Below, piece by piece: positions 45 through 36,444 of a DNA stretch of 40,590 nt. Each line of letters begins with the position of its first letter. Position 1 is the first letter of the stretch. Position numbers and translations under genes: made by a program. The notes under the pieces are model-generated. The model did no database searches. It saw only the letters and a program-made list of their open reading frames with translations, and had not been told where the DNA came from. Source of the stretch: Candidatus Kuenenia stuttgartensis (GTDB lineage Bacteria > Planctomycetota > Phycisphaerae > Sedimentisphaerales > CAMDDF01); NCBI GenBank assembly GCA_945890885.1, contig CAMDDF010000006.1, positions 1 through 40,590 on the forward strand. The letters run 5' to 3'.

Positions 45-1106
45 ATGGTAAAGTATATCGGTTTTGACATTGATTGCAATAAGGTAGTTGCATGCGTAGT
101 GCAGCAGTCAAGAAACGATTATTTCGAGACATTCGGCAGCGACATTGATTCGATGCAGAAGTTTCTGAAAAAGCAAAAAAGCCCCGGCATCGAAATCCGG
201 CTTGCTTTTGAGATAAGCGGTCAGGCGGGCTTTATCTACGATTCTCTAATTGGCAGTGTCGATGTGATAAAAGTTGCCAATCCTTATAAGACTACCTGGA
301 TATACCGAACATCCAAAAAGACAGACTCTCTTGATGCAAGAAAGCTTGCGGTATTGATGAGCATAGACGAACTGCCTGAAGTTTATATGCCGTCTAAGGA
401 AGTCAGGCAGTGGCGGAGTCTGATAAATCACCGCAAGAAGCTAGTCGATAATGCCTGTCAGACAAAGAATCGCATCAGAGCTATTATCAAATCTCAGGGA
501 TTGAATAAAGGTTTTTATAAGGGCAGCCTGTGGACAAAGACCAATCGTCTATGGCTTAAGAGTTTATTTGAGAATAACGATTCATTCGAGCTATGGCGAT
601 TGGAATTAAGCAATTACATAGTAAGCCTTGAGGCTCTTGAAAAGCAGATATCCGGTACGACGGAATATCTTGACGGTTATCTTGCAAAACAGCCCGGCGC
701 AGTTTTACTGATGAGTATTCCCGGAGTAGGTCCAAGGACAGCAGAGGCGATACTTGCTTATACAGACAATATAGAGCGTTTCAGCAATTATAAGAAGTAT
801 TGCAGCTATTTCGGATTGACGCCTAAACTTGACCAGAGCGGTATGACAAGAAGAGTCGGGCATATAAGCAAACAGGGCCCATCCGTTGTTCGATGGGTAT
901 TGTGCGAGAGCAGCTGGAAGGTTGTGCGGTATGTTCCTGCGATGAAGGCTTTTTACGAGCGTGTTATGTCCGGCCAGAAGTCGAGGAAGAAGATAGCGAT
1001 AGTTGCCGTTTGCAGGAAGATGGTAAGCGTAATGCGTGCGATGCTGATAAGCGGCGAGCTGTTTAATGAGTCTATGATAAATGAAGAAATGCTGAAGTCG
1101 GCTTAG
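45..1106 (+). mobile_element. IS110/IS1111-family transposase (intact ORF)
   Basis: 353 aa; N-terminal GFDID DEDD-type start, KTDSLDARKLA, C-terminal IPGVGPRTAEAILAYTDNIERFSNYKKYCSYFGLTPKLDQSG...GHISKQGPSVVRWVL typical of the Transposase_20 domain; SD aggagg before ATG. Confidence 0.93.
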
Positions 1107-4426: not shown

Positions 4427-6859
4427 ATGAAAGAATTGCCAAACGACCCTATACAATTTGCCGCACTTGTTGCCCATCAGCTTAAAGGGCCCATCGCGGC
4501 GGTGAGCAGTCTTTTGCAGACTGTGCTGGGGGAATTGGCTGGCCCAATCACGCCGAAACAGCGGGAAATCCTCGAAAAAGCAATTAGCAGATGCGATGAA
4601 TCTTTGGCGGCGGCGCAAAGGCTGTTGACGATTTCAAAGGCGATTAACAATCCTGAGGCTTTTCAGGGCAGGGCGGATTTAGTTCCGATCATCAGAGAGG
4701 CGATGGAAAGATATGCCCAGCTTTTCAAGAATCAGCATATCGAAATTAAAGCGGATTTTAATTTGCAAAGCGCGATGGCTGTGGGAAATGGTGCGGCATT
4801 GTCCGAGGTTGTCGAGGCATTGTTGAATAACGCGGCGAAATATACGCCGGATCATGGGGTTGTAGAAATAAAGGTCGGCAGCGAGGATGATAAATTTAAG
4901 ATAACCGTTGCGGATTCGGGGATAGGGATACCGCAGGCGGATATGCATAAACTTTTTCAGCCGTTTTACAGGTCGGCTTCTGCGCGGGAGTCGTCGAGGC
5001 CGGGGACGGGGCTTGGGCTTTATTATGTGAAAGCTATCGCGGAGGCTTGCGGCGGAAGTGTTTCTGTCGGCAAGGCGAAAATCGGCGGAGCGGAATTTGT
5101 TATTGAGCTGCCAGCTGCCAAAGATGAAGTTTCGGCAAGCGGCGAATTGATAAAAGGAGAATCTAAAATGCCAGGACTTAAGGTGGTAATAATCGGAGGC
5201 GTCGCGGCAGGGCCGAAAGTGGCTGCGAAGATAATGCGGCTTATGCCGGACGCAGATGTAACGATAGTCGAAAAGGGCAAGCTGCTCTCTTACGCTGGCT
5301 GCGGATTTCCGTATTATATTTCCGGCGTGGTGAAAAATCAGAGCGAGCTTATGAGTTCGTCGGTCGGCGTTGTAAGAGACCCGATATTTTTTCAGAAGGT
5401 TAAAAATATTCACATAATGAATCAGACTGAAGCGATTGAAATTGACAGGAAGGATAAAAAAGTAAAGGTTGTTGATTTGACCAAAAGAGCGGAGTCGTGG
5501 CTTGAATATGATAAGCTTGTTATCGCTACCGGTTCATTGCCGATAATTCCGAAATGTCAGGGGCTGGAGCTTGATAATATATTTACGCTTCACGGGCCAA
5601 GCGATGCCGAGGGCATCAAAGCGGCTGTTGAGCTTACGAAGGCAAAGGATGTTGTAATTGTCGGCGGTGGTTTGATCGGGATTGAAATGACAGAGGCGCT
5701 GACAAAGCGAGGCTGTCGTGTGAGCATCGTCGAAAAGAAAAATCAGATACTGCCGATGCTGGATTTTGAAATGGCAAAGCTGTTCGAAAATCATCTTGAG
5801 TCGCAGGGTGTTAAAGTTTTTACCGATTCGGAGGTGCTGTCGTTTGAAAGCAATGGCGACAAAAAACAAGTGAACTCGGTGGTATGTACCGCAGGCGATG
5901 TTCCTGCTGATATTGTGATTATCGCGGCTGGCATTAAGGCGAATACGCTGCTTGCGGAAAAGGCGGGGCTGGAAATCGGTTCGCTTGGTGCGATAAAAGT
6001 TAATATGAAGATGCAGACAAGCGATGCGGATATTTACGCCGCGGGCGATTGCGTGGAAAGTACGGATATGATTACAAGCAAGCCTTGTTATATTCCGCTG
6101 GGTTCGACGGCGAATAAGCAGGGCAGAATCGTCGCGGTAAATATCTGCGGCGGAAGTGATACTTTTCCAGGTGTGCTTGGTACTGTCGGGTTCAAAGTTT
6201 TTGAATTTTCGATGGGCAGAACCGGCCTATCTGAATCCGGTGCAAAATCGCTGGGTTATGATGCGGTTAGCGTGCTTGCTCCTGGGCCGGATATGGAGCA
6301 TTTTGTGCCGGGTGCTAAATTGCTGATGCTGAAAATAATCGCAGATCGCAAAACCGGCAGGCTGCTTGGTGCTCAGGCAATGGGGCCCGGCGAAGCGATT
6401 AAAAGGATAGATGTCGCGTCGATGGCGATAATGAACAATATGACGGTTTATCAGCTTGCAAATGCGGATTTGTGTTATGCCCCGCCGTTTTCGCCGGTGA
6501 TTGATAATATTATGACCGCGGCCAACATCGCGATAAACAAAATCGAGGGGTATATGGACGGCATCAGCCCGCTTGAGTTTAAGGAAAATCTCGATGCCGG
6601 CGAGGATGTGTATATTCTGGATGTGCGGACTCCGGCTGAATTTGACCGGGTCAGGCTAGCTGGGGCGAATTTGATACCGCTGGCATCGCTGCGAGGCCGA
6701 ATCAATGAAATTCCGAAGGATAGGCCGATAATAACCCTCTGCAATGTTTCTCTTCGCGGATATGAGGCGGCGATTATTCTGAAATCGGCTGGATTTGAGA
6801 ATGTCAAAGTTCTCGATGGCGGGCTTGATATGTACCCTTTTGAAAAGATTTATGTATAA
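4427..6859 (+). CDS. Fusion: histidine kinase (HisKA+HATPase_c), CoA-disulfide reductase/NADH oxidase-like flavoprotein, rhodanese domain
   Basis: H-box AHQLKGPI; HATPase motifs NNAAKYTP, DSGIGIP, GTGLGLYYVK; FAD/NAD motifs VVIIGGVAAGPKVAAKIMR, SYAGCGFPYYISG, VVIVGGGLIGIEMTEAL, IYAAGDC; C-terminal rhodanese ILDVRTPAEFDRVRLAGANLIPL...ITLCNVSLRGYEAA. Confidence 0.88.
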   Translation: MKELPNDPIQFAALVAHQLKGPIAAVSSLLQTVLGELAGPITPKQREILEKAISRCDESLAAAQRLLTISKAINNPEAFQGRADLVPIIREAMERYAQLFKNQHIEIKADFNLQSAMAVGNGAALSEVVEALLNNAAKYTPDHGVVEIKVGSEDDKFKITVADSGIGIPQADMHKLFQPFYRSASARESSRPGTGLGLYYVKAIAEACGGSVSVGKAKIGGAEFVIELPAAKDEVSASGELIKGESKMPGLKVVIIGGVAAGPKVAAKIMRLMPDADVTIVEKGKLLSYAGCGFPYYISGVVKNQSELMSSSVGVVRDPIFFQKVKNIHIMNQTEAIEIDRKDKKVKVVDLTKRAESWLEYDKLVIATGSLPIIPKCQGLELDNIFTLHGPSDAEGIKAAVELTKAKDVVIVGGGLIGIEMTEALTKRGCRVSIVEKKNQILPMLDFEMAKLFENHLESQGVKVFTDSEVLSFESNGDKKQVNSVVCTAGDVPADIVIIAAGIKANTLLAEKAGLEIGSLGAIKVNMKMQTSDADIYAAGDCVESTDMITSKPCYIPLGSTANKQGRIVAVNICGGSDTFPGVLGTVGFKVFEFSMGRTGLSESGAKSLGYDAVSVLAPGPDMEHFVPGAKLLMLKIIADRKTGRLLGAQAMGPGEAIKRIDVASMAIMNNMTVYQLANADLCYAPPFSPVIDNIMTAANIAINKIEGYMDGISPLEFKENLDAGEDVYILDVRTPAEFDRVRLAGANLIPLASLRGRINEIPKDRPIITLCNVSLRGYEAAIILKSAGFENVKVLDGGLDMYPFEKIYV

Positions 6860-10389: not shown

Positions 10390-11130
10390 TTATTCGTCTT
10401 TTTTCTGGCCCGCGACAGCAAGGACAAGGGCATATACCCGCTGGGCACCTGCGTCTTTGAGAATTCTGGAGCATTCATTCAGGGTTGCTCCGGTGGTTTT
10501 GATGTCGTCGACAAGACATATCCTTTTACCGGAAAAATCGTGGTTTTTTCGCAGGGCAAAAGCACCCTCGACATTTTTCTTTCGCTTGGTGGGGGTTAGC
10601 GAAAATTGCGCACGGGTGTTTTTTATGCGTACAAGGTCGGTGTTGATTTTTGATGTTATGCCGTCAAGAACTGAGGCGATGATGTGTGCCTGATTGTAGC
10701 CTCGGATGAAACGTTTTTTCCAATGAAGCGGCACGGGAACGAGATAGTCTATTTCGTTGAAAAATTCGCTGCCCTGCATTGCGGCATTGGTGAGAAAGCG
10801 TAGCTGATTTTTTAGTTGAGTCTGGCCGTTTTTGAATTCGAGAATAATTTTTCTGAAGGCGTTGTCATAGGTTCCGGCTCTTGCGATTGAATCGAAAACG
10901 ATTTCCTCGTTCTGGCATTGGGCGCATCTGCCGTTGATAACTGAATAAGCGGAAGTGTCTCTGCCGCAGCGTCTGCAATAATATCCAGCGGTTGATGAGA
11001 GCAGTTGGCTCCAGCAGTCATCGCAGAGTTTATTGTTTGCTTCGGGTATTCGCTGCGAACAGCTCGAACAAATCGCAGGCCAAAGAAGCTGATTGAATCC
11101 TGAGATTAAAAATTTAACTACTCTCTTCAT
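10390..11130 (-). CDS. comF: ComF-family phosphoribosyltransferase
   Basis: Zn-finger CSSCSQRIPEANNKLCDDCW / YYCRRCGRD; VPVPLHWKKRFIRGYNQAHIIA; PRTase loop ICLVDDIKTTGATLNECSRILKDAGA. Confidence 0.92.
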   Translation of the reverse strand: MKRVVKFLISGFNQLLWPAICSSCSQRIPEANNKLCDDCWSQLLSSTAGYYCRRCGRDTSAYSVINGRCAQCQNEEIVFDSIARAGTYDNAFRKIILEFKNGQTQLKNQLRFLTNAAMQGSEFFNEIDYLVPVPLHWKKRFIRGYNQAHIIASVLDGITSKINTDLVRIKNTRAQFSLTPTKRKKNVEGAFALRKNHDFSGKRICLVDDIKTTGATLNECSRILKDAGAQRVYALVLAVAGQKKDE

Positions 11131-11166: not shown

Positions 11167-12021
11167 CTATTTTAAATCATACGCAGAGTTATCTGGTGAA
11201 AGAAAACCTATTTTAATTTTTGCAGTTTTATTATATGAATCAATATCTGCTTTCACTCGATCAATAGACCCGCCGGTAATAAGATTGTAAGAATCTGTAT
11301 AAAATTCACTTTTAGAGGTCGCATGGCCATCTACCCAGGCAACATTTGTTTGATTATTATGTCTATACCCCTGTGTGCCTGCGGTCTTAAGACTTAATTC
11401 ATTGTCTCCATCCCAAATGAATGGGCTTCTCATCATTTTATTTGCCCCAGCAGAATAGTGTCCGTCTCCAAACAAGGCACATGTGCCGGGACTGCGTACC
11501 TGATTAATCTTGGCAGACATTACAATTTTATAAAAGCTTGGCCATAAAGGATGACTGATGACCTGGCCTGTGTAATTTAGTGTTGTATTTTCGCCCTGAC
11601 CATGCCCGATATAGCTGGTGTTGTAGTTGTAGCCTGTATAAGTTTGAGTGGCTGACCAGTTGTTACTGCCTTTGTATGAGGGGCATTGGTTAACTTTGTC
11701 GATCGTCTCGCCTTGCCAAAGAAGGCCAGGCTCTATCTTATTGCTGACGTTATCAACTACATAATCCCATCCATATGATTTCTTGTCATCAAACCATTGT
11801 GAAATAGGAAAATGTTGGTCATTGCTATTGACATAAGTATTAGCGGCAATTGTCATTTGTCTCATATTTGACAGGCAATAAACTCTTTTTGCCTGTTCTC
11901 TTACCTTGTTTAAAGAAGGCATTAACACTGCAAGCAATGTTGATGTTATAGAAACAACAACCAAAAGCTCAACAAGAGTAAAACCCATTCCATTTTTAGT
12001 ATGTTTATTAATTACAATCAT
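11167..12021 (-). CDS. Type II secretion-type pseudopilin (H-X9-DG family)
   Basis: Prepilin N-terminus MGFTLVELLVVVSITSTLLAVLMPSLNKVREQAKRVYCLSNMRQ; C-terminal NVAWVDGHATSKSEF. Confidence 0.9.
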   Translation of the reverse strand: MIVINKHTKNGMGFTLVELLVVVSITSTLLAVLMPSLNKVREQAKRVYCLSNMRQMTIAANTYVNSNDQHFPISQWFDDKKSYGWDYVVDNVSNKIEPGLLWQGETIDKVNQCPSYKGSNNWSATQTYTGYNYNTSYIGHGQGENTTLNYTGQVISHPLWPSFYKIVMSAKINQVRSPGTCALFGDGHYSAGANKMMRSPFIWDGDNELSLKTAGTQGYRHNNQTNVAWVDGHATSKSEFYTDSYNLITGGSIDRVKADIDSYNKTAKIKIGFLSPDNSAYDLK

Positions 12022-12973
12022 AAGTGCATTTAAGCCAATTTTGCGACATCAACGCAAAGTCTATGAGGTTTACTGAACAATCGTTATTAATATCTCCTAC
12101 CGGATAGGGATGTGTTGGATCCCCGCATGCGGCCACATCCGAAACAGCATCAATCTGCCCACCATAATCATGCCCGTCAAATTTCACATATTGAATCCAG
12201 CGATAACCACTGTCTGAATCAATCGCCAATGAATCATACCCCGCCAAATTTTCAAGATCATAACTTGTTCCACCGGCAGAACCATCATATAAATTGATTC
12301 CATAAGCTACTGAATGTGAAGCAAAATCAGACACCGTTAAATTTGGGTCCAATGGTCTTGTAAAATCCATTTCTTCATCGCTCCATCCGTTTTCCGTAGC
12401 GCTATAAAGTTCTTGGTCCCACCGATAAGCCTGTGTAGGAAATAAATAATCAGAAAATGGCCCTGAGTCAAAAGCATACCATGTCTGGCCATCCTGACTA
12501 ACAGAAACCTTTATTTCCCCAGCTGAAGATGACTTCAAATCACTTATGGTAAATTGGCCCATATTTGCATTGTCATCAATATAGACACCGCTGCCTGTAA
12601 AAAAGGAATTTCCAAATACAATAAAATCTTTACCATAAAGATTTCCCGGATAATCAACAACCTTATGATCAAATTTCACAACAATGTATTCACCGGGATT
12701 AATTGTCGTTATGACTTTTTTATTTTCCAAATCAATATTGTATGCTGCTTCTACAAGTTTAACCCTAAAGTTATTCAAGCCCCATGCCCCAGGCATATTT
12801 TTGCAATTGGTTGCAGGTTTACCCAAAACAGAACATGGGTCATTATATGGCGCAGATCCAAAATCTCCATTACAACTAATTAGTTCTATAGCGAAGTCGC
12901 TATACTCTTGTTCTGCAAAAGAATTTGCCGAAAAAAGTATGATTAATATCAATAATAAATTTAATGTTTTCAT
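12008..12973 (-). CDS. Secreted surface protein with dockerin-like C-terminal tail
   Basis: Signal peptide MKTLNLLLILIILFSANSFA; GKDFIVFGNSFF...EIKVSVSQDGQTWYAF; C-terminal VGDINNDCSVNLIDFALMSQNWLKC; end overlaps the pseudopilin start by 14 nt. Confidence 0.75.
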   Translation of the reverse strand: MKTLNLLLILIILFSANSFAEQEYSDFAIELISCNGDFGSAPYNDPCSVLGKPATNCKNMPGAWGLNNFRVKLVEAAYNIDLENKKVITTINPGEYIVVKFDHKVVDYPGNLYGKDFIVFGNSFFTGSGVYIDDNANMGQFTISDLKSSSAGEIKVSVSQDGQTWYAFDSGPFSDYLFPTQAYRWDQELYSATENGWSDEEMDFTRPLDPNLTVSDFASHSVAYGINLYDGSAGGTSYDLENLAGYDSLAIDSDSGYRWIQYVKFDGHDYGGQIDAVSDVAACGDPTHPYPVGDINNDCSVNLIDFALMSQNWLKCTYDCN

Positions 12974-13033
12974 GACTACCTTTTAAAAATAGATGCTCCC
13001 AGATGATTACCCGGGAGCATTTGAAAGCATGAT

Positions 13034-13555
13034 TTATTTACGTTTTCGCAGGAAAAATCCACCAAGCCCTAAAAACGCAACCGTTAAAGGCTCAGGAGTA
13101 GAGAAAACAGTATATTCCCATGTGTCCCAATCGCCGTCAGCAAGAATTCTATCGGAAGCTCCACTTCCTGAATATGCCCATGTTTTTCCATCTGTGGATG
13201 AATAATAAGCCCAGTAGCTTTGAATACCGCCGGTGACCCACTGAGATGAAATGTCCTGATCATCGTAAGCAATTCGGCCAATCATGCCCCATTGGTCATA
13301 GCCGTATTCAAATGTAGTTTCATTGACAAGTGCATCGAGCATGTCAATTCCTTTAACATTCTGTGCAGCATCAAATTTATAGCCGAAGAAATATTCGTCG
13401 CCGGAAACTGACAGGTCAAAGTCAACCACTACATAAGCAGTATCGTTGCCGTTGCCTGCCCATTGAGAGATTGTTATATCTTCCAGAACATATGCGTTTG
13501 AAACTGCAACTGTTACTAAAACTACTGCCAAACTAACTAAACTTTTAAACTTCAT
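13034..13555 (-). CDS. PEP-CTERM sorting-domain secreted protein
   Basis: Signal peptide; C-terminal TPEPLTVAFLGLGGFFLRKRK; body contains YWAYYSSTDGKTWAYSGSGASDRILADGDWDTWEYT. Confidence 0.85.
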   Translation of the reverse strand: MKFKSLVSLAVVLVTVAVSNAYVLEDITISQWAGNGNDTAYVVVDFDLSVSGDEYFFGYKFDAAQNVKGIDMLDALVNETTFEYGYDQWGMIGRIAYDDQDISSQWVTGGIQSYWAYYSSTDGKTWAYSGSGASDRILADGDWDTWEYTVFSTPEPLTVAFLGLGGFFLRKRK

Positions 13556-13763: not shown

Positions 13764-13805
13764 AAAATAAAAAAAGCCGCCATCCTCGCGAAGAGAATGA
13801 CGGCT
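13764..13805 (-). terminator. Intrinsic terminator, likely the riboswitch expression platform
   Basis: Minus strand AGCCGTCATTCTC TTCGC GAGGATGGCGGCT TTTTTTAT, between riboswitch and PEP-CTERM gene. Confidence 0.85.
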
Positions 13806-13889
13806 CTAAAAATCTTCTATACCCACACCTGACCCCAAAAAAAGAGAAGGTGCGCATAAAAAATGAGCTATGTCCTTTACGCGAGAACA

Positions 13890-14075
13890 GCACAAATGCT
13901 TATCAATCACAGGCAGGTTTTCTGACTCACATCCTACCAGAAGAAAGCCTTCCCGTTCGTATCGAACAGTGGCACAAAAATCCTCTGGATTCTCAGCGTT
14001 GGCTGAGTCGGACGCTCACAGCGGCGCGACCGTCGCGGAATTTAACCGCGTTCCCATTTACTGTATTTCTTCACA
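13890..14075 (-). ncRNA. Cobalamin (AdoCbl-type) riboswitch
   Basis: Minus strand contains the conserved core: GGGAACGCGGUUAAAUUCCGCGACGGUCGCGCCGCUGUGAGC ... GCCACUG ... CGGGAAGGC ... AGGAUGUGAGUCAGAAAACCUGCC. Confidence 0.93.
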
Positions 14076-14118
14076 GAAACCTGTAATTAAAAAATTCAAT
14101 TATCAAAGAACGTATCGG

Positions 14119-14147
14119 ATATTAGCTTATCGGGCAGGATTTGTCAA
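14119..14147 (-). promoter_or_regulatory. Sigma70-like promoter for the riboswitch transcript
   Basis: Minus strand TTGACA-N17-TAATAT between the carB stop and the riboswitch. Confidence 0.75.
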
Positions 14148-25117: not shown

Positions 25118-25846
25118 CTATTGATTCCTGAACAAAAACGCAAATACGGCAAGCAGTGCGATTATCGAAAAAACCGTTACGCTTAGCGAAACCACGAACA
25201 GCCAGGTAAACCGTCTATTCTGTCTTGAAACGAGGTATTTCATATATCTATCGCTTACCGCGAAGGTCTTGTTCATCTGGGCGAGCATCTCGGTCTGGGC
25301 CTTGGTAGAATTGTCGAGATGTTCCATTGAAGTCTTGAATTTATTAAATGTCTCGACAAACTGAATGTCCGTCTCCGCAGAGGCTGAAAGCTGATGATTT
25401 ATATTTTCCAGAACATCGGTCTGCCGGACTGCTTCACGGGGAATACTTTCTATCACCCGGATAAACTCCAGCTCTTTCTGCTGAGAATCTTTTAATTCAT
25501 TCAAAAGAGCCTTCACTGTCAATGACTGATTTCTGACCGCGTCAGGCAGAGTCTCAATAATGTCGGGCAGATGCTCGATGCGGGACATCAGCTGCTCGTT
25601 TTGATCAACGTGCTTTGACAGGTTTTCGTTTATTCCTGTCAGCTGAGTCAGAAGTTCTGCAAGACCCTGCTGAATCACCTCAAGCGAACGCTGGCTCGAA
25701 GGCTGAGATACTTGTTTAGCCAATACCTTGTCAGTCTCTTTGGCCCTTCCGACAACATCATCCAGCGATGGAATCGACAGCGAACCGTTTTTGAATTTCA
25801 GATTAAACTTTTCAATCATTTTTGAAAAAATATCTTTAATGGTCAT
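25118..25846 (-). CDS. Coiled-coil protein with C-terminal TM helix, function unknown
   Basis: ATG at 25846 behind GGAGG; long coiled coil; C-terminal TM LFVVSLSVTVFSIIALLAVFAFLF. Confidence 0.65.
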   Translation of the reverse strand: MTIKDIFSKMIEKFNLKFKNGSLSIPSLDDVVGRAKETDKVLAKQVSQPSSQRSLEVIQQGLAELLTQLTGINENLSKHVDQNEQLMSRIEHLPDIIETLPDAVRNQSLTVKALLNELKDSQQKELEFIRVIESIPREAVRQTDVLENINHQLSASAETDIQFVETFNKFKTSMEHLDNSTKAQTEMLAQMNKTFAVSDRYMKYLVSRQNRRFTWLFVVSLSVTVFSIIALLAVFAFLFRNQ

Positions 25847-25955
25847 TTTGACCTCCATATCTAAATTATCTTTGAATATTAGAAAGGCATAGCACTTTAA
25901 TTTCAAGCATTTTTCTGATATAGTTTAGCTATCTGTGAAAAGTGAAAGGTGCAAA

Positions 25956-26897
25956 ATGAAGCTTTTAAGTTATAAAATTAAAAAAACCGGCAGTAATTCT
26001 TTCGGAATTTTGACTAACAACGGAATTGCGGATATACCCGCCAATTGGCCCGAGAAAAATTGTCCGCAATGTTTGAAAGACCTACTGAAACAGGATGATG
26101 TTTGTCCTGATAACCTTCAAGAAACCGTCTCACTTGCCAAAGATTTTATCAATCTTGACGATGTAAAATTACTGCCACCCATTGCAAATCCAGGCAAAAT
26201 CCTCGCTCTGGCGGGTAATTATTCCGAGCATATCAAAGAGTGCGGCCTGTCGCTTGGCCTTTCGGATGCCCCACGCGGCGATACTGTGCCTCGGCCGTTT
26301 ATTATGCCGACAAATGTTTTAGCTGGTGCCAATGATGAAATTCAATGGCCGGTTTACAGCGAACAGATTGATTACGAGGCGGAACTTACGATAATTATCG
26401 GCAAGACCGCAAAATGCGTAAGCCCGGCCGATGCAAAGGATTATATCGCTGGATTCTGCGTTTGTAATGACGTTTCCGCTAGGAGCATTACCTTTAAAGC
26501 AGGCAGAACGGAAAGGCCCTGGGATAATTTTTACGACTGGCTAAACGGCAAATGGGCAGATGGTTTCCTTCCGATTGGCCCGTGGATTACCACCGCTGAC
26601 GAAATAAAGGATGTGCAAAATCTTCAAATAGAATTAAAAGTCAATAGCCAAACCCGCCAAAAGTCGAATACCTCAATGATGATTTACCCTGCAAATGAAA
26701 TCGTAAGTTTTCTAAGCCATATTATGACGCTTGAGCCGGGCGATATCATCTGCACCGGCACTCCCGCTGGAGTGGGCCACGCTACGGGAAATTACCTCAA
26801 AGCAGGCGACGTTATCGAATGCCAAATCGAGACCCTTGGCAAATTGATGAATAAAATGGGCCCGAGACCGGAAAAATTCTACAAACCGCTCGAATAA
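25956..26897 (+). CDS. Fumarylacetoacetate hydrolase (FAH) family protein
   Basis: ILALAGNYSEHIKE, IDYEAELTIIIGKTAKCVSPADAKDYIAGFCVCNDVSAR, LEPGDIICTGTPAGVG. Confidence 0.92.
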   Translation: MKLLSYKIKKTGSNSFGILTNNGIADIPANWPEKNCPQCLKDLLKQDDVCPDNLQETVSLAKDFINLDDVKLLPPIANPGKILALAGNYSEHIKECGLSLGLSDAPRGDTVPRPFIMPTNVLAGANDEIQWPVYSEQIDYEAELTIIIGKTAKCVSPADAKDYIAGFCVCNDVSARSITFKAGRTERPWDNFYDWLNGKWADGFLPIGPWITTADEIKDVQNLQIELKVNSQTRQKSNTSMMIYPANEIVSFLSHIMTLEPGDIICTGTPAGVGHATGNYLKAGDVIECQIETLGKLMNKMGPRPEKFYKPLE

Positions 26898-27007: not shown

Positions 27008-27094
27008 GGAGAGATGCCGGAGTGGCTTATCGAGCCGGTTTCGAAAACCGGTGTGCTCGTAAGGGCACCGCGGGTTCGAATCCCGCTCTCTCCG
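27008..27094 (+). tRNA. tRNA-Ser(CGA)
   Basis: ggagagatgccggagtggcttatcgagccggtttcgaaaaccggtgtgctcgtaagggcaccgcgggttcgaatcccgctctctccg; anticodon loop TTCGAAA, long variable arm. Confidence 0.95.
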
Positions 27095-27445
27095 TTATAT
27101 ATCAATGACTTACGTTCGTTTTTTACCCATAAAGTCTATCAAAGAGTCTATAAAAAAACAGTTGTAAGTCTTTATTTTAATACAATTTAAAAAAAATTGG
27201 TTTTAATGCAATATACAAAAATTTTTGTTATTCAAAAAAACCGTCAAAAAGCCCATTTCATAGCCATTACTAAGAGGCAGGGGGCTACTCACAAATCCAT
27301 GCCGGAGCCGTTCTAAGCAAACTACAGAGCATCCATCATAACAGTATTACGATCCCACATAAAATTATCTTCATTTAACCGATAATCGGCAAAACGAAAG
27401 TGTTTCGTGGGGGTAGTCGGGTAGTCATGTAGTCTTGCGCCATGA

Positions 27446-27509
27446 TGGCTCATAATGAGCCAAGGGGGGCAGGTGTGTTCTGACCTTTTATCAGTTAGTG
27501 ATAAAAGGT
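27446..27509. repeat. Two palindromes near the left edge of the accessory block
   Basis: TGGCTCA-TAA-TGAGCCA (27446..27462) and ACCTTTTATCA-GTTAG-TGATAAAAGGT (27483..27509). Confidence 0.7.
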
Positions 27510-27737
27510 TAAAAACTATAAACTATGCAAAATCGCACCTCGTGCGTATTTGCATTAAGCTGAGACCGAATACTATTTTCTATCGTGATTCCTCCGCCCA
27601 TACCACAAAGGATTTTAGGGAGTCACAGGCTAAAATATTAGTATCCTAAGGAAACCGGCAAAACAGCTAGTGAGCCAAGAGTGGGCAAGGTTATTTAATT
27701 CAAAGGGCTACAATCCAGCCAATCACAACTTTAAATA

Positions 27738-28331
27738 TTACTTTCTAAAACCACTTCTTTGCTGTTTGCTGTCCCAAAAATATTCAAATATGTCAATATC
27801 TGTCTCGACTCCTCTATTGTATTTCATTTGGTATTCATCAACCATATTGAGAACTTCTAGATCGTCGAACTCGGCTTCACAGTTGCTGCAGTAATATTCG
27901 ACGCTTCGTACATCCGAATAGTGGTCATAGATATCTTGATCTACGGGCTCATAGCCCCCAGAGCCAAAAGAAATTCCGAATAGCACACTGCCTACCTCAT
28001 ATTGGCCCATTACTCTGGAATGTTCCTCGCATACTGGGCATTGGATTTTCATGAGATTAGGAGGGTCAGGTTCGTAATTTGAACTTTTGATTGTCTCAAT
28101 TGCATTACTCACCAAATCGTCTATATAGATTTTACACTCTTGTCCTGCCTGAAATATAACCTCCTGAAGCGTGCTCTCTGTGATCCGCTCATCGTTGTAT
28201 CTACAGTAAATGGAAGATGAGTCCAAAAGGTCTTTTGAGTTTATTTTAAGGTCATCATCAGGTGATTGAAGCAATCTACCCATTTTGGCCTTCACCATTT
28301 CTTTGATTTTTTCTTTATTTATCAATGTCAT
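27738..28331 (-). CDS. Hypothetical protein with zinc-ribbon-like CPVC...CSNC
   Basis: QCPVCEEHSRV...EYYCSNCEAEFDD; 197 aa; same strand as the adjacent hypothetical ORF. Confidence 0.6.
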   Translation of the reverse strand: MTLINKEKIKEMVKAKMGRLLQSPDDDLKINSKDLLDSSSIYCRYNDERITESTLQEVIFQAGQECKIYIDDLVSNAIETIKSSNYEPDPPNLMKIQCPVCEEHSRVMGQYEVGSVLFGISFGSGGYEPVDQDIYDHYSDVRSVEYYCSNCEAEFDDLEVLNMVDEYQMKYNRGVETDIDIFEYFWDSKQQRSGFRK

Positions 28332-28340
28332 TTGCTACTC

Positions 28341-28670
28341 CTAATTCTTTTTAATTTTAATTAATTTTCTGATATTTTCGTTTTCGTCGCCGTCCATAAA
28401 CAAGATTTCATTTTTTAGGTGGTCTATAAACCCTAAAAGTGTTGCTTGTTCTTCACTGGCCTCTTCTGTACCGTGACTTTCATTAAATTCATCGCAAAGA
28501 TGCCGTATAAAAAGTTGTGCAAACTCAGTAGTGTCATTCCCAAAAATCATTTTATCAACTCTCAACTGACCGTATAAAAAATCTTGATAAAAATCTAAAT
28601 TTGTAGGACACTCTTTAATGCTTTTTCTGTACTGGTTGCTGTTAAATGTGATTGTTTTAATTCTTGTCAT
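28341..28670 (-). CDS. Hypothetical protein (acidic C-terminus)
   Basis: 109 aa ORF 9 nt upstream of 27738..28331; RBS-like aggag upstream (minus strand). Confidence 0.55.
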   Translation of the reverse strand: MTRIKTITFNSNQYRKSIKECPTNLDFYQDFLYGQLRVDKMIFGNDTTEFAQLFIRHLCDEFNESHGTEEASEEQATLLGFIDHLKNEILFMDGDENENIRKLIKIKKN

Positions 28671-29053
28671 TTTTACATCTCCTAATAAATTAATTTTTAC
28701 TATTTTTACTTATATTTAGCAGCGACGCGCTGCCTCACAATTATTTATCGACGGAAATAGAGCCCAACTTTGGGTCTAATAGGCATTTTTATCGGTCTTT
28801 TCTTAAATTTTTAAATATTTCGGATTTTATCTTCATTTTCGGGATTCTGCCCCTGGCGTCTGCCAAGGGCAAAAAAAGGAGTCTGACGATTAGTAGGTAG
28901 ACCTGTAGACTGTTAAAAATGGCTTGATTGACAGCCACAAATACCTACTAAACTACTACATTCCATCAACTGTAAGGGCTACTGTTTAATATGGCATGCA
29001 TTAGTGAGTATGTGCTGTCTGTAAGAGATGCACTGCTACGACTAAAACAACTA

Positions 29054-29073
29054 ACTATCAGTTACCTGATAGT
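29054..29073. repeat. Inverted repeat ACTATCAG-TTAC-CTGATAGT
   Basis: Perfect 8-bp arms in a long noncoding AT-rich stretch. Confidence 0.7.
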
Positions 29074-29490
29074 ACTGTATCCCAACGAGGAATACAAATT
29101 CGATTAAACATTAAACTCTTGTTTAACATTACTATCAGGATTATACTCTATAATCTTTCACTTTTCAAGGAAAAAATAAATTTTCGATTATTCTTCCATC
29201 GATCTTTCACTTTCATGAGCTTTAGCTAACTTGCCTTTTAGGACGACTACAGCTAATTCTAAGGCATTATAGCAAAATCATTGAAAATAAAATGCACCAC
29301 GATTGATTCTAATCGTCGATCTTTCCTTAGCCCGACCTAAATACCCCACCCCCAAAAAAAAGATTATTAATTGTATCGAACAAGTAAAAGCAATGATGCC
29401 CCATATGGCCCGCCAAGGCTAAAAGGGGCATCGTTATGAAATTTTCAAAGAACCACAATCCATGCTAATTCTGTATATTGCTGTTGCCGC

Positions 29491-29694
29491 TTATGCTGAT
29501 ACTTTTATGGCCTGCAGTTGTTCCGCAGTATCTTTGACCCTTTGTTCCGCGGTTGAATAGGCGGCCTTATCCATTTCAATACCTATGCAGCGTAATCCCA
29601 GTCCGCACTGAAGACCAGCTATCCATAAGGTTCCAGATCCCATCATGGGATCCTGAAGAACACCATCTTTTGGACAAAAAGCCTGACTGTATAA
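29491..29694 (-). pseudogene. C-terminal remnant of a DNA (N6-adenine/N4-cytosine) methyltransferase
   Basis: Minus strand translation ...AFCPKDGVLQDPMMGSGTLWIAGLQCGLGLRCIGIEMDKAAYSTAEQRVKDTAEQLQAIKVSA*; motif I-like DPMMGSGT; in-frame stop immediately upstream. Confidence 0.8.
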
Positions 29695-29798
29695 TCACCA
29701 ATTTCTTTCAAAAAACAAATCCGAATCTTTCACTTTATAGATTTGTTGTTTGTAACTTATTTTATGACATATAGTTAAGTATAATTTGCACTACCCCC

Positions 29799-29827
29799 TT
29801 GAAAAAAAGTATTTTTTCTGGTATAAT
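29799..29827 (+). promoter_or_regulatory. Sigma70-like promoter upstream of the ParB-like gene leader
   Basis: TTGAAA-N17-TATAAT. Confidence 0.75.
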
Positions 29828-30003
29828 AATTTCAGTTATTGGCAGGTTGAATTAACATATCAGCCATTAACGAATAATAATGAAGTAAAAATTTAGACTG
29901 GTGGATTGTCTTTTGACTTTCTGAATGTAACTACATAACGGTGTATGCTTGTTGTGTGAAAGGTTGCCAGTCCCTTTTACGCGGCTGGTGTATATGAATC
30001 TAA

Positions 30004-30036
30004 AAGCCTGTTCGCGTGTGCGAGCAGGCTTTTTTT
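30004..30036 (+). terminator. Intrinsic terminator in the leader of the ParB-like gene
   Basis: aagcctgttcgc gtgt gcgagcaggctt tttttt. Confidence 0.85.
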
Positions 30037-30068
30037 GTTAATGTAGTTAAATTTGAAAGGGCGTAAAG

Positions 30069-31061
30069 ATGCTAAGAATTCAAGATTTAAAGGCAGATGC
30101 GAAATATAAGGATATATTTTCAATTACTCAGGCTGAGTATAATGCAACGGAATTGCTGGCAATTAACGACGGTGAAATCTTTCAGCCGTTATTTGTATGG
30201 AAGGGCCAAAGTATCCTGGTTTATGGGTATCATTATTGGGAGATACTCAAGGCGCACCCGGAACTAAATTACACTGTGCGGGAAGTTGAGTTCCAGGACT
30301 GGCAGGAAGCAAAGGTATGGGCTATTGAGCATTATATAGCTCAACCAGAGACTCGGCTATGGCAGAAACTGGAGGCAGCTGTCCAGTGTGAGTCATATTG
30401 GCTCTTAAAAGAAGATGCCAAAAAAGCCCATGGCAATAGGCCTGAGTCCCCTTCACTCAGTGAAGGTAACTCGGACCAGAGCAAAGAAGTTAATGCCATA
30501 ATTGCCCAAAAAGTCGGATGTAGCGCAACTTATGTGTATAATTTCAAAAAGATTCTATCTTCCGGCACAACAGATATTATCAAACTGTGCCGCAAGGGGG
30601 AACTGTCCATAAGTGCCGCATATGCGCGACTATTTCTTCCCAAAAAACCGAAAATAGCCAAACCCGGGCTTCAAACCCCGATAGAATTGAAAATTGACAG
30701 CAGGGATATTTTTGAGGATTGTGAGAAGAATACCGATATCGGCAAGAAAAACACCAATCGTCATAATGGTATTCCCGTTGATCCGATGCCGATTGCTCAG
30801 CAGATAAAGGCGGCCAATGTCCCAGATGGTGCTATCTGGGTAACCCTCCACAAAAAAGATGGCCAGATGCAGGTGGTTAAAAAGACCTTTGACGAAATCA
30901 CAGGTATTGTTCATATGACGGTCAACAGTTACCAGTGCAAAGTGGTCTCAGCAGACAATGACATAATTGTTATAGAAGCAGACCATATTAATGGCGGCAC
31001 TCGTGAACTGCGCCAAAAAGATGATTCTGATTTTGAAAATAACTCGCGTAGGGCTTCTTAG
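30069..31061 (+). CDS. ParB/N-like nuclease-domain protein
   Basis: IFQPLFVWKGQSILVYGYHYWEILKAHPELNYTVREVEFQDWQEAKVWAIEHYIAQ resembles a ParB N-terminal domain; HTH-like NAIIAQKVGCSATYVYNFKKIL. Confidence 0.7.
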   Translation: MLRIQDLKADAKYKDIFSITQAEYNATELLAINDGEIFQPLFVWKGQSILVYGYHYWEILKAHPELNYTVREVEFQDWQEAKVWAIEHYIAQPETRLWQKLEAAVQCESYWLLKEDAKKAHGNRPESPSLSEGNSDQSKEVNAIIAQKVGCSATYVYNFKKILSSGTTDIIKLCRKGELSISAAYARLFLPKKPKIAKPGLQTPIELKIDSRDIFEDCEKNTDIGKKNTNRHNGIPVDPMPIAQQIKAANVPDGAIWVTLHKKDGQMQVVKKTFDEITGIVHMTVNSYQCKVVSADNDIIVIEADHINGGTRELRQKDDSDFENNSRRAS

Positions 31062-31075
31062 GAGGGGAATAAACT

Positions 31076-32410
31076 ATGGAATTTACAATTAATACAAAAA
31101 TGTTCATTAAATATGTCACACCAGCGGCAGATATTGCACTAAAGAATGCCAATAAATATCACTGTTGTTTTGGGATGATCAAAATAACTGCATACCCTAA
31201 GGTTCTTATGATAGAGGCTTATGGTGGGACCGCAAGTATTACTGTTAAAGTCAGGCAGTCTGATGGGTACAAACATGGCAGAACAGGTGAGGTTTGTATA
31301 TTAGCCAAAGAATTAATCGATACATTGAAATCCCTTGAGTCTTTCGATGATTTACTAGTATGTGTCAAAGACGGTAAACTGAAGCTATTACCGGAGTCAG
31401 ATATCTATAACTATAACAAAATCCAAATTCAAACCAATAGTGTGGTATTGCCAGAATCATCTGAAGAATACGACCATGAACTGACAGTAGATAGAGAGCA
31501 TTTTATCAAAGGGTTAAAGCAAATTCAATATGCACCTGCTTCTGATGAAAGACTGTTCTCATATATGTGTATTGTATTTGAATCTGCAGGCAACTCACTG
31601 AAATTTACCGCAGGCTCCGGTGCTCGTTTTACTGCTGTGGAATATATTGGTAACAATAAAATGTTATCATCCAAAGATATAAAAATGATCTTCCCGAAAA
31701 CAAATATATCAAATGTACTCAGAATCTTTGAAAAAAACACCAGCTTAATGTTAAAAATTAAAGAATCAGATGGCGACATAACGAATAATATACATGCGCA
31801 GCAAGTTATTGAGAGTGACAATATAATCGTACGGATATATGGTGCAGAATATTTCACACAATATCCTAATTTAAGCAATATAATGAGTCATAACTATACT
31901 TATCAGATACCGACTAAAGTCCAGGACTGGAAATATGTCGCTGCTGCAATCACTGCCAGTAGGCATTCTTTATCAGAACCACTGCATAATATAAAGGTTA
32001 TGATAGATTTACAGCATGGCAATTTAGATGTTCAGGTTAATTCGCTAATGAGTATAAATAGAAGAGTTCAATTTGAGCTTGAAACATGCATTGCCGACAT
32101 TTCAAATAAAAAGAGCTACAAACCTTGGTTCTGCTGCGATGCAAATCATATCGTTGAGATGGTTAAAAAAAATAAAACACAGAACACGGTTATATTTAAT
32201 TTTGAAGATCAGGCAAAGCTTGACCCTATTGATGCCGATAATCCCCAAAAAAGGAAGCCTGTTTTGCTCAAATTTCCTAACCAGTTGCATAAAGATGGCG
32301 TTACCGAAAAGTCTTTCGTGCTATTTTCTATATCATTAAAATGGGACGATAAATATCTGTCTATAGATCACGATGGTGTTGTGAGCCGTTTTGAGATTTT
32401 AGACTTATAA
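31076..32410 (+). CDS. DNA polymerase III beta-subunit (sliding clamp)-like protein
   Basis: MIKITAYPKVLMIEAYGGTASITVKV; SYMCIVFESAGNSLKFTAGSGARFTAVEYIG; GAEYFTQYPNLSNIM; three-domain DnaN-like periodicity. Confidence 0.72.
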   Translation: MEFTINTKMFIKYVTPAADIALKNANKYHCCFGMIKITAYPKVLMIEAYGGTASITVKVRQSDGYKHGRTGEVCILAKELIDTLKSLESFDDLLVCVKDGKLKLLPESDIYNYNKIQIQTNSVVLPESSEEYDHELTVDREHFIKGLKQIQYAPASDERLFSYMCIVFESAGNSLKFTAGSGARFTAVEYIGNNKMLSSKDIKMIFPKTNISNVLRIFEKNTSLMLKIKESDGDITNNIHAQQVIESDNIIVRIYGAEYFTQYPNLSNIMSHNYTYQIPTKVQDWKYVAAAITASRHSLSEPLHNIKVMIDLQHGNLDVQVNSLMSINRRVQFELETCIADISNKKSYKPWFCCDANHIVEMVKKNKTQNTVIFNFEDQAKLDPIDADNPQKRKPVLLKFPNQLHKDGVTEKSFVLFSISLKWDDKYLSIDHDGVVSRFEILDL

Positions 32411-32604
32411 ATTGAAAAATAGTTAAAATATTTTCAAAAAAATCATGAAATTCGTGTTCTGGATTAAAGTTTTTTTGATTTGATTTCGATTAGTAATAAG
32501 CTGGTTAAATAACGTTGTTTGATTGGCTATGACGTAATAGTAATTTTGAGGTAATAGTTAGAATCTGTCGATAAAAATAAAATGGTCGAATTATTTCGAT
32601 TTAT

Positions 32605-32650
32605 TAGCTCAGTGTTATCGTACGACAGGATGATACTGGGCTATTTTTTT
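32605..32650 (+). terminator. Intrinsic terminator-like hairpin upstream of the 32663 ORF
   Basis: tagctcagtgttatc...gatgatactgggcta ttttttt. Confidence 0.7.
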
Positions 32651-32662
32651 AGGAGAATAGTT

Positions 32663-33055
32663 ATGTATGATTCGGAAAAATATGGATTTGTGTGTAGTGA
32701 GTGCGGAGGTCATAAGCTGGGGCATCAGCAGTATGTTAAATGTGTGATCCCAGTGATAATCTACGAAGATAGCCTAATGGGATTTGGACAGTCGGAAATT
32801 GACGAAACTGACTATATCAATGTCGATAATGGTTATATTTGTATGGATTGCAAAAAATTTGTCACACACTGCGGTAGTATGGTGCAAATTGAAGATCTGC
32901 TTGACTACCTGAGAATGGACACTGAAGCTCTCCGGCAAGAGGAAAAAGGCTACGAAGCTTATTTAAAAGCTCAGGCCTCCGCACAATCGCAGATAGAAAA
33001 GGAGCAGGCGTCCTATTACCGAGAAATAGATTTGGCCGATGAGATGGATAATTAA
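32663..33055 (+). CDS. Hypothetical zinc-ribbon protein
   Basis: ATG at 32663 with aggag; MYDSEKYGFVCSECGGHKLG...GYICMDCKKFVTHCG. Confidence 0.6.
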   Translation: MYDSEKYGFVCSECGGHKLGHQQYVKCVIPVIIYEDSLMGFGQSEIDETDYINVDNGYICMDCKKFVTHCGSMVQIEDLLDYLRMDTEALRQEEKGYEAYLKAQASAQSQIEKEQASYYREIDLADEMDN

Positions 33056-33066
33056 ACAAGTATTAT

Positions 33067-33103
33067 TTCGATATAAAAAAGGAAATTTAGGATTTATATC
33101 GAA
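33067..33103. repeat. Inverted repeat TTCGATATAAA-N15-TTTATATCGAA
   Basis: Perfect 11-bp arms directly downstream of the zinc-ribbon ORF. Confidence 0.7.
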
Positions 33104-33220
33104 TGTATAAATAACAGAGTTCAGGGTCTGTATTAAATTTGTGATCAGGGACAAGATAGCAGTATAAATAAAAAATTATAAATTACAAAATAAAAATTGA
33201 TGTAGTAAATATCTTGTCTA

Positions 33221-33258
33221 AGCCCCCAAGCAGCCTGAACTGCTTAGGGGCTATTTTT
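33221..33258 (+). terminator. Intrinsic terminator
   Basis: agcccccaagcag cctgaa ctgcttaggggct attttta. Confidence 0.8.
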
Positions 33259-33410
33259 ATGTTATTTGACAAGTAAAAATGAAGAAATGTGGTGAAAAAT
33301 AAAAAAATTTAATAAATTTTAACAAAATTGAAATTTTTTTGTCACAAAACAGGTTTAATGCAGCACTATATATATAGAACTAGTTATTCCTGGTTTAGTA
33401 GTTGAGTAAT

Positions 33411-33444
33411 AAAAATGTTTTTGCTTAAGCAAAAAAACATTTTT
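33411..33444. repeat. Long hairpin aaaaatgtttttgc-ttaa-gcaaaaaaacattttt
   Basis: Near-perfect inverted repeat in the intergenic region before the sigma-like gene. Confidence 0.75.
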
Positions 33445-33491
33445 ACTTATATATGTAAAGTTAGTAGTTAGAATATTCCTAATATAGTTGT

Positions 33492-33525
33492 GTTGAGGAA
33501 AAACCTTCTAAAGGTTTTCCTCAAC
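33492..33525. repeat. Long hairpin gttgaggaaaaacctt-cta-aaggttttcctcaac
   Basis: Near-perfect 15-bp arms with one bulged A. Confidence 0.8.
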
Positions 33526-33625
33526 AACTACAACCGAGTATTCACTGGTTGAGTAGTTAAATGGTAGTCTGTCCCCACCTTTTCTTCATTTTTGAAAACT
33601 TTATTATAAATTTGGAGATTCAGGA

Positions 33626-34195
33626 ATGACGGTGACAGATTATTTATATGTTTATACATATTTTATTCAGGATAGGCTTGATGGCCTGGTTACTAAATAT
33701 TGTTACAAATACAAAATTTACGGTAACCGCCAGTTAAATATCTGGGAAGAGGTAAGATCTGATATAGGGATAACTTTTTGCTATAAATGCAAATACTCCC
33801 TGGATATACCTATAAAGGTAAATTTTATTACTTATCTGACTGTTTCACTTTCTAAACAGGTTAAATACAGCATTATTAAGCAAATCAAGTATTACAAAAT
33901 TTGTAAAAAAGATTCCGCCTATCACCTGCATAAGTTCGGCAAGTCTACTAACGGCAATATAATAGATTTACGTATAAAAGATCCTGCCGACGAATTATTC
34001 CGCCTCAGTTATAGAGATTTTAATTTCTCGGCTTTAAATGGGACTGAAAAGAGAATAATCAAATTATATTTTTGCTGGAACAAAAAAATCAGTGAAATAT
34101 CTAAACTCCTGAATATCACTGAAAGCGCGGTCAGGCAATCTAAAAAAAGAGCACTTATAAAGCTAAAAAAATCTAATATGCATTTGTTGAATTAA
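33626..34195 (+). CDS. Sigma-70-like factor / region-4 HTH protein
   Basis: C-terminal LNGTEKRIIKLYFCWNKKISEISKLLNITESAVRQSKKRALIKLKKS. Confidence 0.65.
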   Translation: MTVTDYLYVYTYFIQDRLDGLVTKYCYKYKIYGNRQLNIWEEVRSDIGITFCYKCKYSLDIPIKVNFITYLTVSLSKQVKYSIIKQIKYYKICKKDSAYHLHKFGKSTNGNIIDLRIKDPADELFRLSYRDFNFSALNGTEKRIIKLYFCWNKKISEISKLLNITESAVRQSKKRALIKLKKSNMHLLN

Positions 34196-34239
34196 TCTTT
34201 TTTTAAAAATATTTCGATTAGTTATTAGGAGTAAAAACG

Positions 34240-34335
34240 GTGAAAAAAATATTAAACATTTACAGAGAGCAATTCATATGGCAGTTTCTCACCGTCCTGC
34301 TGTTGAGTTGCTTTTTGTTTTATGGAGGATATTAA
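34240..34335 (+). CDS. Putative 31-aa hydrophobic microprotein coupled to the helicase gene
   Basis: SD aggag + GTG; MKKILNIYREQFIWQFLTVLLLSCFLFYGGY*; TAATG stop/start overlap with 34335 ATG. Confidence 0.5.
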   Translation: MKKILNIYREQFIWQFLTVLLLSCFLFYGGY

Positions 34336-35774: not shown

Positions 35775-35804
35775 AAATTATTTTAATATAAGGAGTAAAT
35801 ATTT

Positions 35805-36368
35805 ATGGCAAACAGTAGATGGCAAAAAAAGTATTACGGCAGAAAAAAAATTGACAATTGGTTTTTGAAAGTAAAACCAGGTTGTAAACTCAAAGTCAGA
35901 CTAGTAGGTGATGCAGTCCGATTAGTCAGGATATTCACCAGAGATAGCAGATGTATTAATATCGATAGTGAAGAAACAGCCAACAAGCTAAAAGAAAAAT
36001 ATCCTGATAAAGTCGAAAATATTTCGGTTAAATATGCCTGCTGGTGTTTTGACAGACATGGTGGCAAAATGAAAATCCTTGAGATGCCCGTTTCTGTGTT
36101 CAGTGCTATTAGCAATAGGATGGTATCGACTGGCAAAAAAATATCTGATATCGAAGAAGGCTGTGACTGGAAAATCAGCACCAATGGTGCAAAAGGGATT
36201 GATGTCAGGTATGAAGTCACTTATCTCAAGGAAAGCTGTTTAACGGCAATAGAACAAAACATGGTCGCGGATCGGAAAACAGACAAAAAGATGCAATACG
36301 ATTTGACTGAAATGTTCCCATGCTTTGGGTTTTGGGAAGCCGAGTGGCAGTTGAGAGATGATGAATGA
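35805..36368 (+). CDS. gp32-like ssDNA-binding protein candidate, paralogue A
   Basis: KPGCKLKVRLVGDAVRLVRIFTRDSRCINIDSEETANKLKEKYP...YACWCFDR; strongly similar to 36445..37008. Confidence 0.55.
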   Translation: MANSRWQKKYYGRKKIDNWFLKVKPGCKLKVRLVGDAVRLVRIFTRDSRCINIDSEETANKLKEKYPDKVENISVKYACWCFDRHGGKMKILEMPVSVFSAISNRMVSTGKKISDIEEGCDWKISTNGAKGIDVRYEVTYLKESCLTAIEQNMVADRKTDKKMQYDLTEMFPCFGFWEAEWQLRDDE

Positions 36369-36444
36369 TAACGGCAGTTTTGAATAAAATGTTGATATTA
36401 ATGTAGGTAAATAAATAAATTAATTTTTTTAAAAAGGAGTATTT

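Follow-up and report, generated by a model that had tools for sequence, protein, structure and literature searches.

The window analysed here, by which we mean the whole stretch of 40,590 nucleotides, carries on its minus strand a gene cassette that follows a cobalamin (B12) riboswitch. The cassette is a conserved one: it comprises the riboswitch, a first gene (slot 1, here encoding P0001), a second gene (slot 2, here encoding P0002) and a gene for a DUF1559 pseudopilin-like protein, to which a ComF-like gene is added in several genomes. The ComF-like gene is probably not part of the cassette's function. The features referred to below, listed from upstream to downstream, are the following.

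14119 to 14147, minus strand: promoter-like sequence TTGACA-17-TAATAT just upstream of the riboswitch, from a consensus scan (10/12 matches)
13895 to 14099, minus strand: cobalamin (B12) riboswitch aptamer, RF00174 (92.4 bits against a gathering threshold of 31.5, E 8e-22)
13773 to 13807, minus strand: predicted intrinsic terminator within the expression platform of the riboswitch, a 15-bp stem followed by a T run (folding at -23.6 kcal/mol, z-score -4.3)
13034 to 13555, minus strand: slot-1 protein P0001, 173 aa, with a predicted signal peptide, transcobalamin-beta-like domain and PEP-CTERM tail
13103 to 13468, minus strand: predicted transcobalamin-beta-like domain of P0001, residues 30-151, a beta-grasp with hairpin insert (AlphaFold, PDB fold search, hhalign to DUF4430 proteins)
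13109 to 13219, minus strand: best-conserved stretch of P0001 by column conservation, residues 113-149 (strand 4, then the ascending connector and strand 5)
13037 to 13102, minus strand: putative PEP-CTERM sorting tail of P0001, residues 152-173 (PF07589 at 16.7 bits, family-wide PF07589 matches, exosortase genes)
12993 to 13020, minus strand: hairpin with a short T run between the slot-1 and slot-2 genes, from a consensus scan; candidate partial terminator
12008 to 12973, minus strand: slot-2 protein P0002, 321 aa, a predicted secreted jelly-roll with a dockerin-type C-terminus; regular neighbour of slot 1, and fused to it elsewhere
11167 to 12021, minus strand: third cassette gene, coding for a pseudopilin-like protein of DUF1559 type (PF07596 at cut-off, prepilin N-terminus) and overlapping the slot-2 gene by 14 nt
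10390 to 11130, minus strand: ComF-like phosphoribosyltransferase, next gene, recognised by eye from the sequence; same order in several relatives

The open reading frame of P0001 was confirmed, with its start codon at 13555 and its stop codon at 13036-13034 on the minus strand. The protein consists of the signal, the domain and the tail alone; the N-terminal alpha/alpha-toroid that precedes the beta domain in transcobalamin and intrinsic factor is absent.

Other features of the window were recorded as observations in their own right. By eye, an 810-aa ORF of the plus strand (4427-6859) appears to join a sensor histidine kinase to an NADH oxidase resembling CoA-disulfide reductase and to a rhodanese domain, an unusual fusion; a 902-aa ORF of the minus strand (37138-39846) appears to join a nucleotidyltransferase to a galactokinase-like GHMP kinase; and an IS110-type transposase-like ORF stands at the window edge (45-1106, plus strand). 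The region 27008-37008 begins with a tRNA (27008-27094), which is followed by genes that look by eye like ParB, a DnaN clamp, a sigma factor and a DnaB helicase, and it holds two ORFs, similar to each other, that resemble ssDNA-binding proteins (35805-36368 and 36445-37008, also by eye). This region is perhaps an integrated phage-like element. About 11 kb from the cassette, at 25118-26897, a coiled-coil membrane protein is encoded beside a fumarylacetoacetate-hydrolase-like gene, and relatives of this gene pair flank the riboswitch cassette elsewhere (for example at L005, L008, L010, L013, L023 and L024).

A preliminary description of P0001, made from the sequence alone, had placed the gene behind a B12 riboswitch, and this placement is borne out. 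The RF00174 match at 14099-13895 lies on the same strand as the gene and is of full length, covering all 189 positions of the model (1-189); the 2.14 Mb assembly has no other. Promoter-like consensus matches are no commoner than in shuffled sequence and are weak evidence by themselves, and terminator-like sites in the region are likewise not enriched over shuffles. The riboswitch terminator is supported by more than the scan, because its folding z-score is low and because it is conserved: a hairpin and T run occupy the corresponding place in 25 of the 25 aptamer-gene spacers of relatives that were examined. From its sequence, the platform reads naturally as a transcriptional B12-off switch.

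Relatives were gathered from 161 genomes of the host's order, which is probably Sedimentisphaerales, and the common domain is visible across the 26 of them aligned together (alignment A1). A profile of the family yields 54 domain-level matches among 159 genomes of the order. For 47 of these, RF00174 lies upstream on the strand of the gene, at a distance of 124-471 nt, and two more were linked in earlier scans; the remainder are three at contig ends and two exceptions without a riboswitch. Among assessable copies, then, 49/51 sit 124-505 nt behind a cobalamin riboswitch. A scan of named genomes with a narrowed alignment gave 18 loci, all of them in planctomycete MAGs, of Sedimentisphaerales / Phycisphaerae. 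Two tandem matches to the domain profile occur in each of three ORFs (L168:513-2492, L183:2706-3395 and L181:518-1264), with two clear full copies in the first and partial ones elsewhere.

The preliminary description also called P0001 a PEP-CTERM protein. By inspection, the C-terminus TPEPLTVAFLGLGGFFLRKRK has a PEP motif, a hydrophobic helix and a basic end (TPEP...KRK), whereas its scores fall under the cut-offs of both Pfam (16.7 vs 20.7 bits) and NCBIfam (13.4 vs 16 bits). At the level of the family, 23 of 26 members match PF07589 (scan to E <= 1; best 2e-7), and the host genome has two exosortase (EpsH) genes (E 4e-58 and 1e-55). Judged by these tail features and by the exosortase in the same genome, the P0001 family is predicted to be one of PEP-CTERM proteins, that is, of exosortase substrates; the designation thus stands for the family, while the tail of P0001 on its own stays below the models' thresholds.

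Since PEP-CTERM proteins are abundant in these genomes, and tail-only PEP-CTERM matches are numerous across the order, one could suppose that P0001 is an ordinary surface protein of this kind, with an unrelated function and a riboswitch that is adjacent by accident. We regard this as highly improbable. The linkage found in 49 of 51 copies argues against it, as do the specific fold match and the fact that the slot is otherwise held, in most cassettes, by DUF4465, both of which are described below.

The segment singled out in the preliminary description, SYWAYYSSTDGKTWAYSGSGASDRILADGDWDTWEYT, corresponds to residues 113-149 of P0001 (13219-13109), and it is here that the top conserved columns fall: W115, Y117, W126, G132, R136, G141, D144 and W146. 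The motif is not a product of chance, because W115, W126, G132, R136, G141, D144 and W146 are each retained in at least 24 of the 26 relatives of the order.

An AlphaFold model of P0001, built from alignment A1, has a mean pLDDT of 86.6. Its predicted core consists of strands at residues 38-45 and 54-61, a helix at 69-79, and strands at 100-103, 112-120 and 142-151. Two further strands of the model (83-86 and 92-97), between the helix and strand 3, were assigned by us to the hairpin insert of the transcobalamin-like clade, whose topology has been defined as S1-S2-helix-hairpin insert-S3-S4-S5 (PMC1796856). Two conserved glycines, one after strand 2 and one before strand 3, have been described for the clade (PMC1796856); in the P0001 family, by a mapping to those positions that is our own, 18-20 of the 26 members have a glycine after strand 2 (columns 63 and 69) and 18 have one at column 99, so that it is invariant at neither place.

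When the model is searched against the PDB, ranks 1-19 are taken exclusively by transcobalamin, intrinsic factor, haptocorrin and the DUF4430-type structure 3u7z, with match probabilities of 0.99-1.00, after which the probability drops to 0.16 at rank 20. The Foldseek E-values are modest, from 3e-3 (best) to 5e-2. TM-scores by query length are 0.40-0.47, for a query that includes signal and tail, and TMt is 0.62-0.67 against isolated beta domains. Among the matches is 5np4 (TMt 0.67), a structure of the human transcobalamin beta domain on its own, with cyanocobalamin bound. Sequence identity to the matched chains is only about 9-17%, and sequence searches of the PDB with the family profile returned chance matches and PEP-CTERM-like tails only. 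The comparison of structures, which the preliminary description had proposed as a check on its reading, turned up these relatives, and no unrelated fold among its first 19 ranks.

In the conserved stretch, the solved intrinsic factor and transcobalamin chains read TYWQFLSGVTPLNEGVADY and EFWQLL...TPLLQGIADY, and P0001 reads SYWAYYSSTDGKTWAYSGSGASDR, in an unscored side-by-side reading. The connector carries a GxAD-type motif in the solved chains (GIADY, GVADY), where P0001 has GASDR. The region from strand 4 through the connector to strand 5 touches B12 in transcobalamin (PMC1796856). The conserved residues cannot prove a binding site, because the contacts of the transcobalamin hairpin are made mostly through backbone atoms (PMC1796856).

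The relation to DUF4430 (PF14478), which the preliminary description had suggested, requires a distinction between kinship and membership. PF14478 matches neither P0001 (at E <= 10) nor any of its 26 relatives (at E <= 1; curated score 23.8 bits), and a search of the host genome with the same model gave no match. On the other hand, hhalign of the family against ten planctomycete PF14478 proteins gives 94.7% (E 5.8e-8, 96 columns). Once signal and tail are removed and the DUF4430 set is widened to 18 domains, the probability comes to 70% and the score to 31.8, where the best of 100 column shuffles reaches 17.4 and the reversed alignment 9.8. Thus DUF4430 proteins (3u7z of Ruminococcus gnavus and the planctomycete L032-L051) are like the P0001 family in profile and in fold, but PF14478 recognises them and not the P0001 family. 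On the modelled fold and the profiles, P0001 is best termed 'related to DUF4430', and not a 'DUF4430 protein': it is of the same clade and lies outside the Pfam model. The broader suggestion of a transcobalamin/intrinsic-factor-like (DUF4430-like) beta domain is upheld, by the first 19 ranks of the fold search and by the significant profile-profile match to PF14478 proteins of the same phylum.

From model and profiles together, we hold it almost certain that the P0001 domain belongs to the transcobalamin-like clade of the SLBB superfamily, and the best explanation for the family is that it forms a divergent branch of that known clade. A different identity was considered and set aside: NF040672, the SCO2322 family, matches residues 114-152 of P0001 at 19.8 bits (E 8e-4), far below its cut-off of 85 bits, and is matched by 3 of 26 members only. 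It remains a lead; in Streptomyces, SCO2322 presumably has an ECF transporter nearby. Apparent B12 loci are the setting of some planctomycete DUF4430 genes as well, as judged by eye from a TonB-receptor-like neighbour in L036. In L046 (minus strand), a single ORF of 433 aa appears by eye to combine a planctomycete DUF4430 domain with a periplasmic binding protein of BtuF-like type.

Behind many cobalamin riboswitches of the order without a transcobalamin-like domain, slot 1 is held by PEP-CTERM proteins of another family, DUF4465. We counted the occupants of the slots with profiles built for this analysis over 135 distinct loci, which are an ad hoc set and not a random sample. Slot 1 is a transcobalamin-like domain in 52 of these loci, DUF4465 in 46, and both in none. 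The slot-2 partner is present in 50/52 of the former and 42/46 of the latter, and the pseudopilin in 45/52 and 29/46, respectively, some loci being cut short. The identity of DUF4465 was checked with Pfam at one locus (E 4e-54); PF14717, its Pfam model, matches neither P0001 nor any of the 26 relatives. The slot-2 proteins behind the two kinds of slot 1 are homologous (hhalign 99.4%, E 2e-21). In-frame fusions to slot 2 occur with both kinds as well: the transcobalamin-like domain is fused in 11 ORFs, in one of them as two copies, and DUF4465 in 13.

A further planctomycete bears on the function of this second family, namely Mucisphaera calidilacus. Tight binding of B12 is established for the DUF4465 proteins of Bacteroides (PMC12751083), and binding has been reported for eight diverse members, one of them from that species (PMC13398666). 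DUF4465 (PF14717; BtuJ of Bacteroides) shares with the P0001 family the slot, the riboswitch, the partner family and secretion, and in this order the PEP-CTERM tail, whereas its fold, an augmented beta-jelly-roll (PMC12751083), is unrelated to that of P0001. In our analysis, the strongest functional argument for a role of P0001 in B12 capture is that a proven binder can fill the same locus, under the same regulation and beside the same partner.

The remaining riboswitch loci have either propeller-like proteins in slot 1 or unrelated genes that appear, by eye, to be B12-related (anaerobic ribonucleotide reductase, BtuF, TonB receptor, cobinamide salvage). Propeller-like slot-1 proteins were seen at L075, L076, L100 and L143, with a PEP-CTERM tail where the end is visible; one was checked with Pfam and gave a weak PQQ_2 match only. 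At L101, L106 and L148, the first gene after the riboswitch encodes a PQQ-like propeller that is about 510 aa long and has a dockerin-type end, and the pseudopilin gene is directly next. At L142:653-1396 (minus strand of the locus), slot 1 is apparently a copy of the slot-2 fold with a PEP-CTERM tail, and the second protein is propeller-like. It is possible that propellers are a third exchangeable fold of slot 1, reminiscent of BtuG.

The slot-2 protein P0002 was modelled from 18 relatives (pLDDT 87.2). A single PDB match falls below E 0.001, and it is also the best: 8blw_B (E 2.6e-5, probability 1.00), from a B. theta entry annotated 'BtuB1 with lipoprotein BtuG1'; the rmsd of 14.8 is high, and the aligned region of the chain was not displayed. 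The next matches are mostly jelly rolls of the CBM32 type. BtuG1 also carries a BtuH domain (PMC10404256), but the BtuH2 structure 7BIZ is not among the best 50 fold matches of P0002. Sequence searches against the PDB matched no BtuH or BtuG chain and found nothing useful beyond dockerin ends, so that an assignment of slot 2 to BtuH by sequence was rejected; kinship with BtuH is a lead only, suggested by the model. A dockerin motif is found in 12 of 18 slot-2 members (E <= 1; best 2e-7), and a plasmid search for slot-2 relatives found none. The BtuG and BtuH surface lipoproteins of Bacteroides are likewise riboswitch-controlled accessory proteins for B12 at the cell surface, and the model of P0002 finds its best match in 8blw_B. 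P0002 differs from them in having a dockerin-type tail instead of lipidation, and in a host genome without a TonB plug domain match.

These properties of slot 2 raise the question of which protein does the binding. The slot-1 domain could be transcobalamin-like in fold and yet not hold B12 itself, serving as the surface anchor or dock of a slot-2 protein that is the true binder. Slot 2 is found behind either kind of slot 1, its model leads to a chain of the BtuB1-BtuG1 complex, the two slots are fused in places, and it is slot 1 that bears the PEP-CTERM tail, an anchoring signal; all of this is what such a division of labour would look like. Nevertheless we think it unlikely, because the family that otherwise fills slot 1, DUF4465, has been proven to bind B12 tightly (PMC12751083, PMC13398666), and because there is a structure of the transcobalamin beta domain alone in complex with cyanocobalamin (5np4). 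Moreover, the fusions keep the domain ahead of slot 2, in one case in two copies, although the slot-1 tail is there no longer C-terminal, so that carrying the tail is not the domain's sole purpose.

It is important, also, to consider the ligand itself. The domain might bind a related compound and not finished cobalamin: cobinamide, a precursor or breakdown product of B12, or another tetrapyrrole. Precursors were thought possible by the authors who described the clade (PMC1796856), the host genome has a cobalt-type CbiMQO ECF system, and what seem by eye to be cobinamide salvage genes lie behind a like riboswitch in L090, L099 and L105. Family-wide control by a cobalamin riboswitch and the exchange with DUF4465 point, rather, to cobamides, and we consider a related ligand quite improbable.

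Taking the evidence together, we think it likely that P0001 is an exosortase-sorted, surface-directed protein for the capture of B12 (cobamide), built on a beta domain of the transcobalamin/intrinsic factor clade. That it binds B12 is what we infer, and the inference is strengthened by the riboswitch linkage throughout the family and by the exchange with DUF4465. When B12 is scarce, the riboswitch would let RNA polymerase past the terminator, and the slot-1 catcher, its slot-2 partner and the pseudopilin-like protein would be made; when B12 is ample, transcription would stop early. The catcher would be exported by means of its signal peptide and then delivered to the exosortase by its PEP-CTERM tail. 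Cobamide would be held by the face rich in aromatic residues that lies about strands 3-4 and the connector leading to strand 5, probably jointly with the slot-2 protein, and the catcher would then pass it to an importer.

The C-terminal beta domain of transcobalamin, intrinsic factor and haptocorrin is like P0001 in predicted fold, strand order, hairpin insert, secretion and cobalamin context. In transcobalamin, the beta domain works together with an alpha/alpha-toroid, whereas P0001 is bacterial, is predicted to be sorted by a PEP-CTERM tail, and has as its partner what is modelled as a jelly-roll in place of a toroid. One may speculate, although we would sooner doubt than assert it, that the proteins of slots 1 and 2 are the two halves of a B12 clamp, in analogy to the pair of domains in transcobalamin. 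The slot-1 half of this clamp could then be freely replaced by unrelated B12-binding folds (DUF4465, possibly propellers); exosortase- or dockerin-type ends would keep the clamp at the surface, and it would feed an importer other than BtuB/BtuCD in genomes like the host's.

The host genome (95.6% completeness) contains no match to a TonB plug domain and none to a FecCD/BtuC-type permease. Of 159 genomes of the order, 92 have TonB plug domains, so that the order as a whole does not lack them; their absence from the host may be real or may reflect a gap in the MAG. A corrinoid protein (PF02310/PF02607) and another protein with a B12-binding domain are encoded in the genome, both above cut-off. 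The ECF system was considered as an importer of B12 and rejected, since CbiQ sits with CbiM and CbiO in a cobalt-type set that offers no evidence for B12 import.

Bacterial relatives of the transcobalamin beta domain, planctomycete ones included, were predicted to be B12 scavengers in 2007 (PMC1796856), as a prediction and not a demonstration. In the open-access literature, we found no experimental test of this prediction for a bacterial member, and no description of the form reported here, which would be exosortase-sorted, is riboswitch-controlled and shares its slot.

Near-universal riboswitch control and one-for-one exchange with a B12-binding fold provide strong independent support for the 2007 prediction. 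If P0001 acts as we propose, exosortase-sorted surface proteins would be added to the known strategies of B12 capture, with a conserved partner family now named. The host, moreover, exposes a gap: it has corrinoid-dependent machinery and the cassette, yet no detectable TonB receptor or BtuC-type permease.
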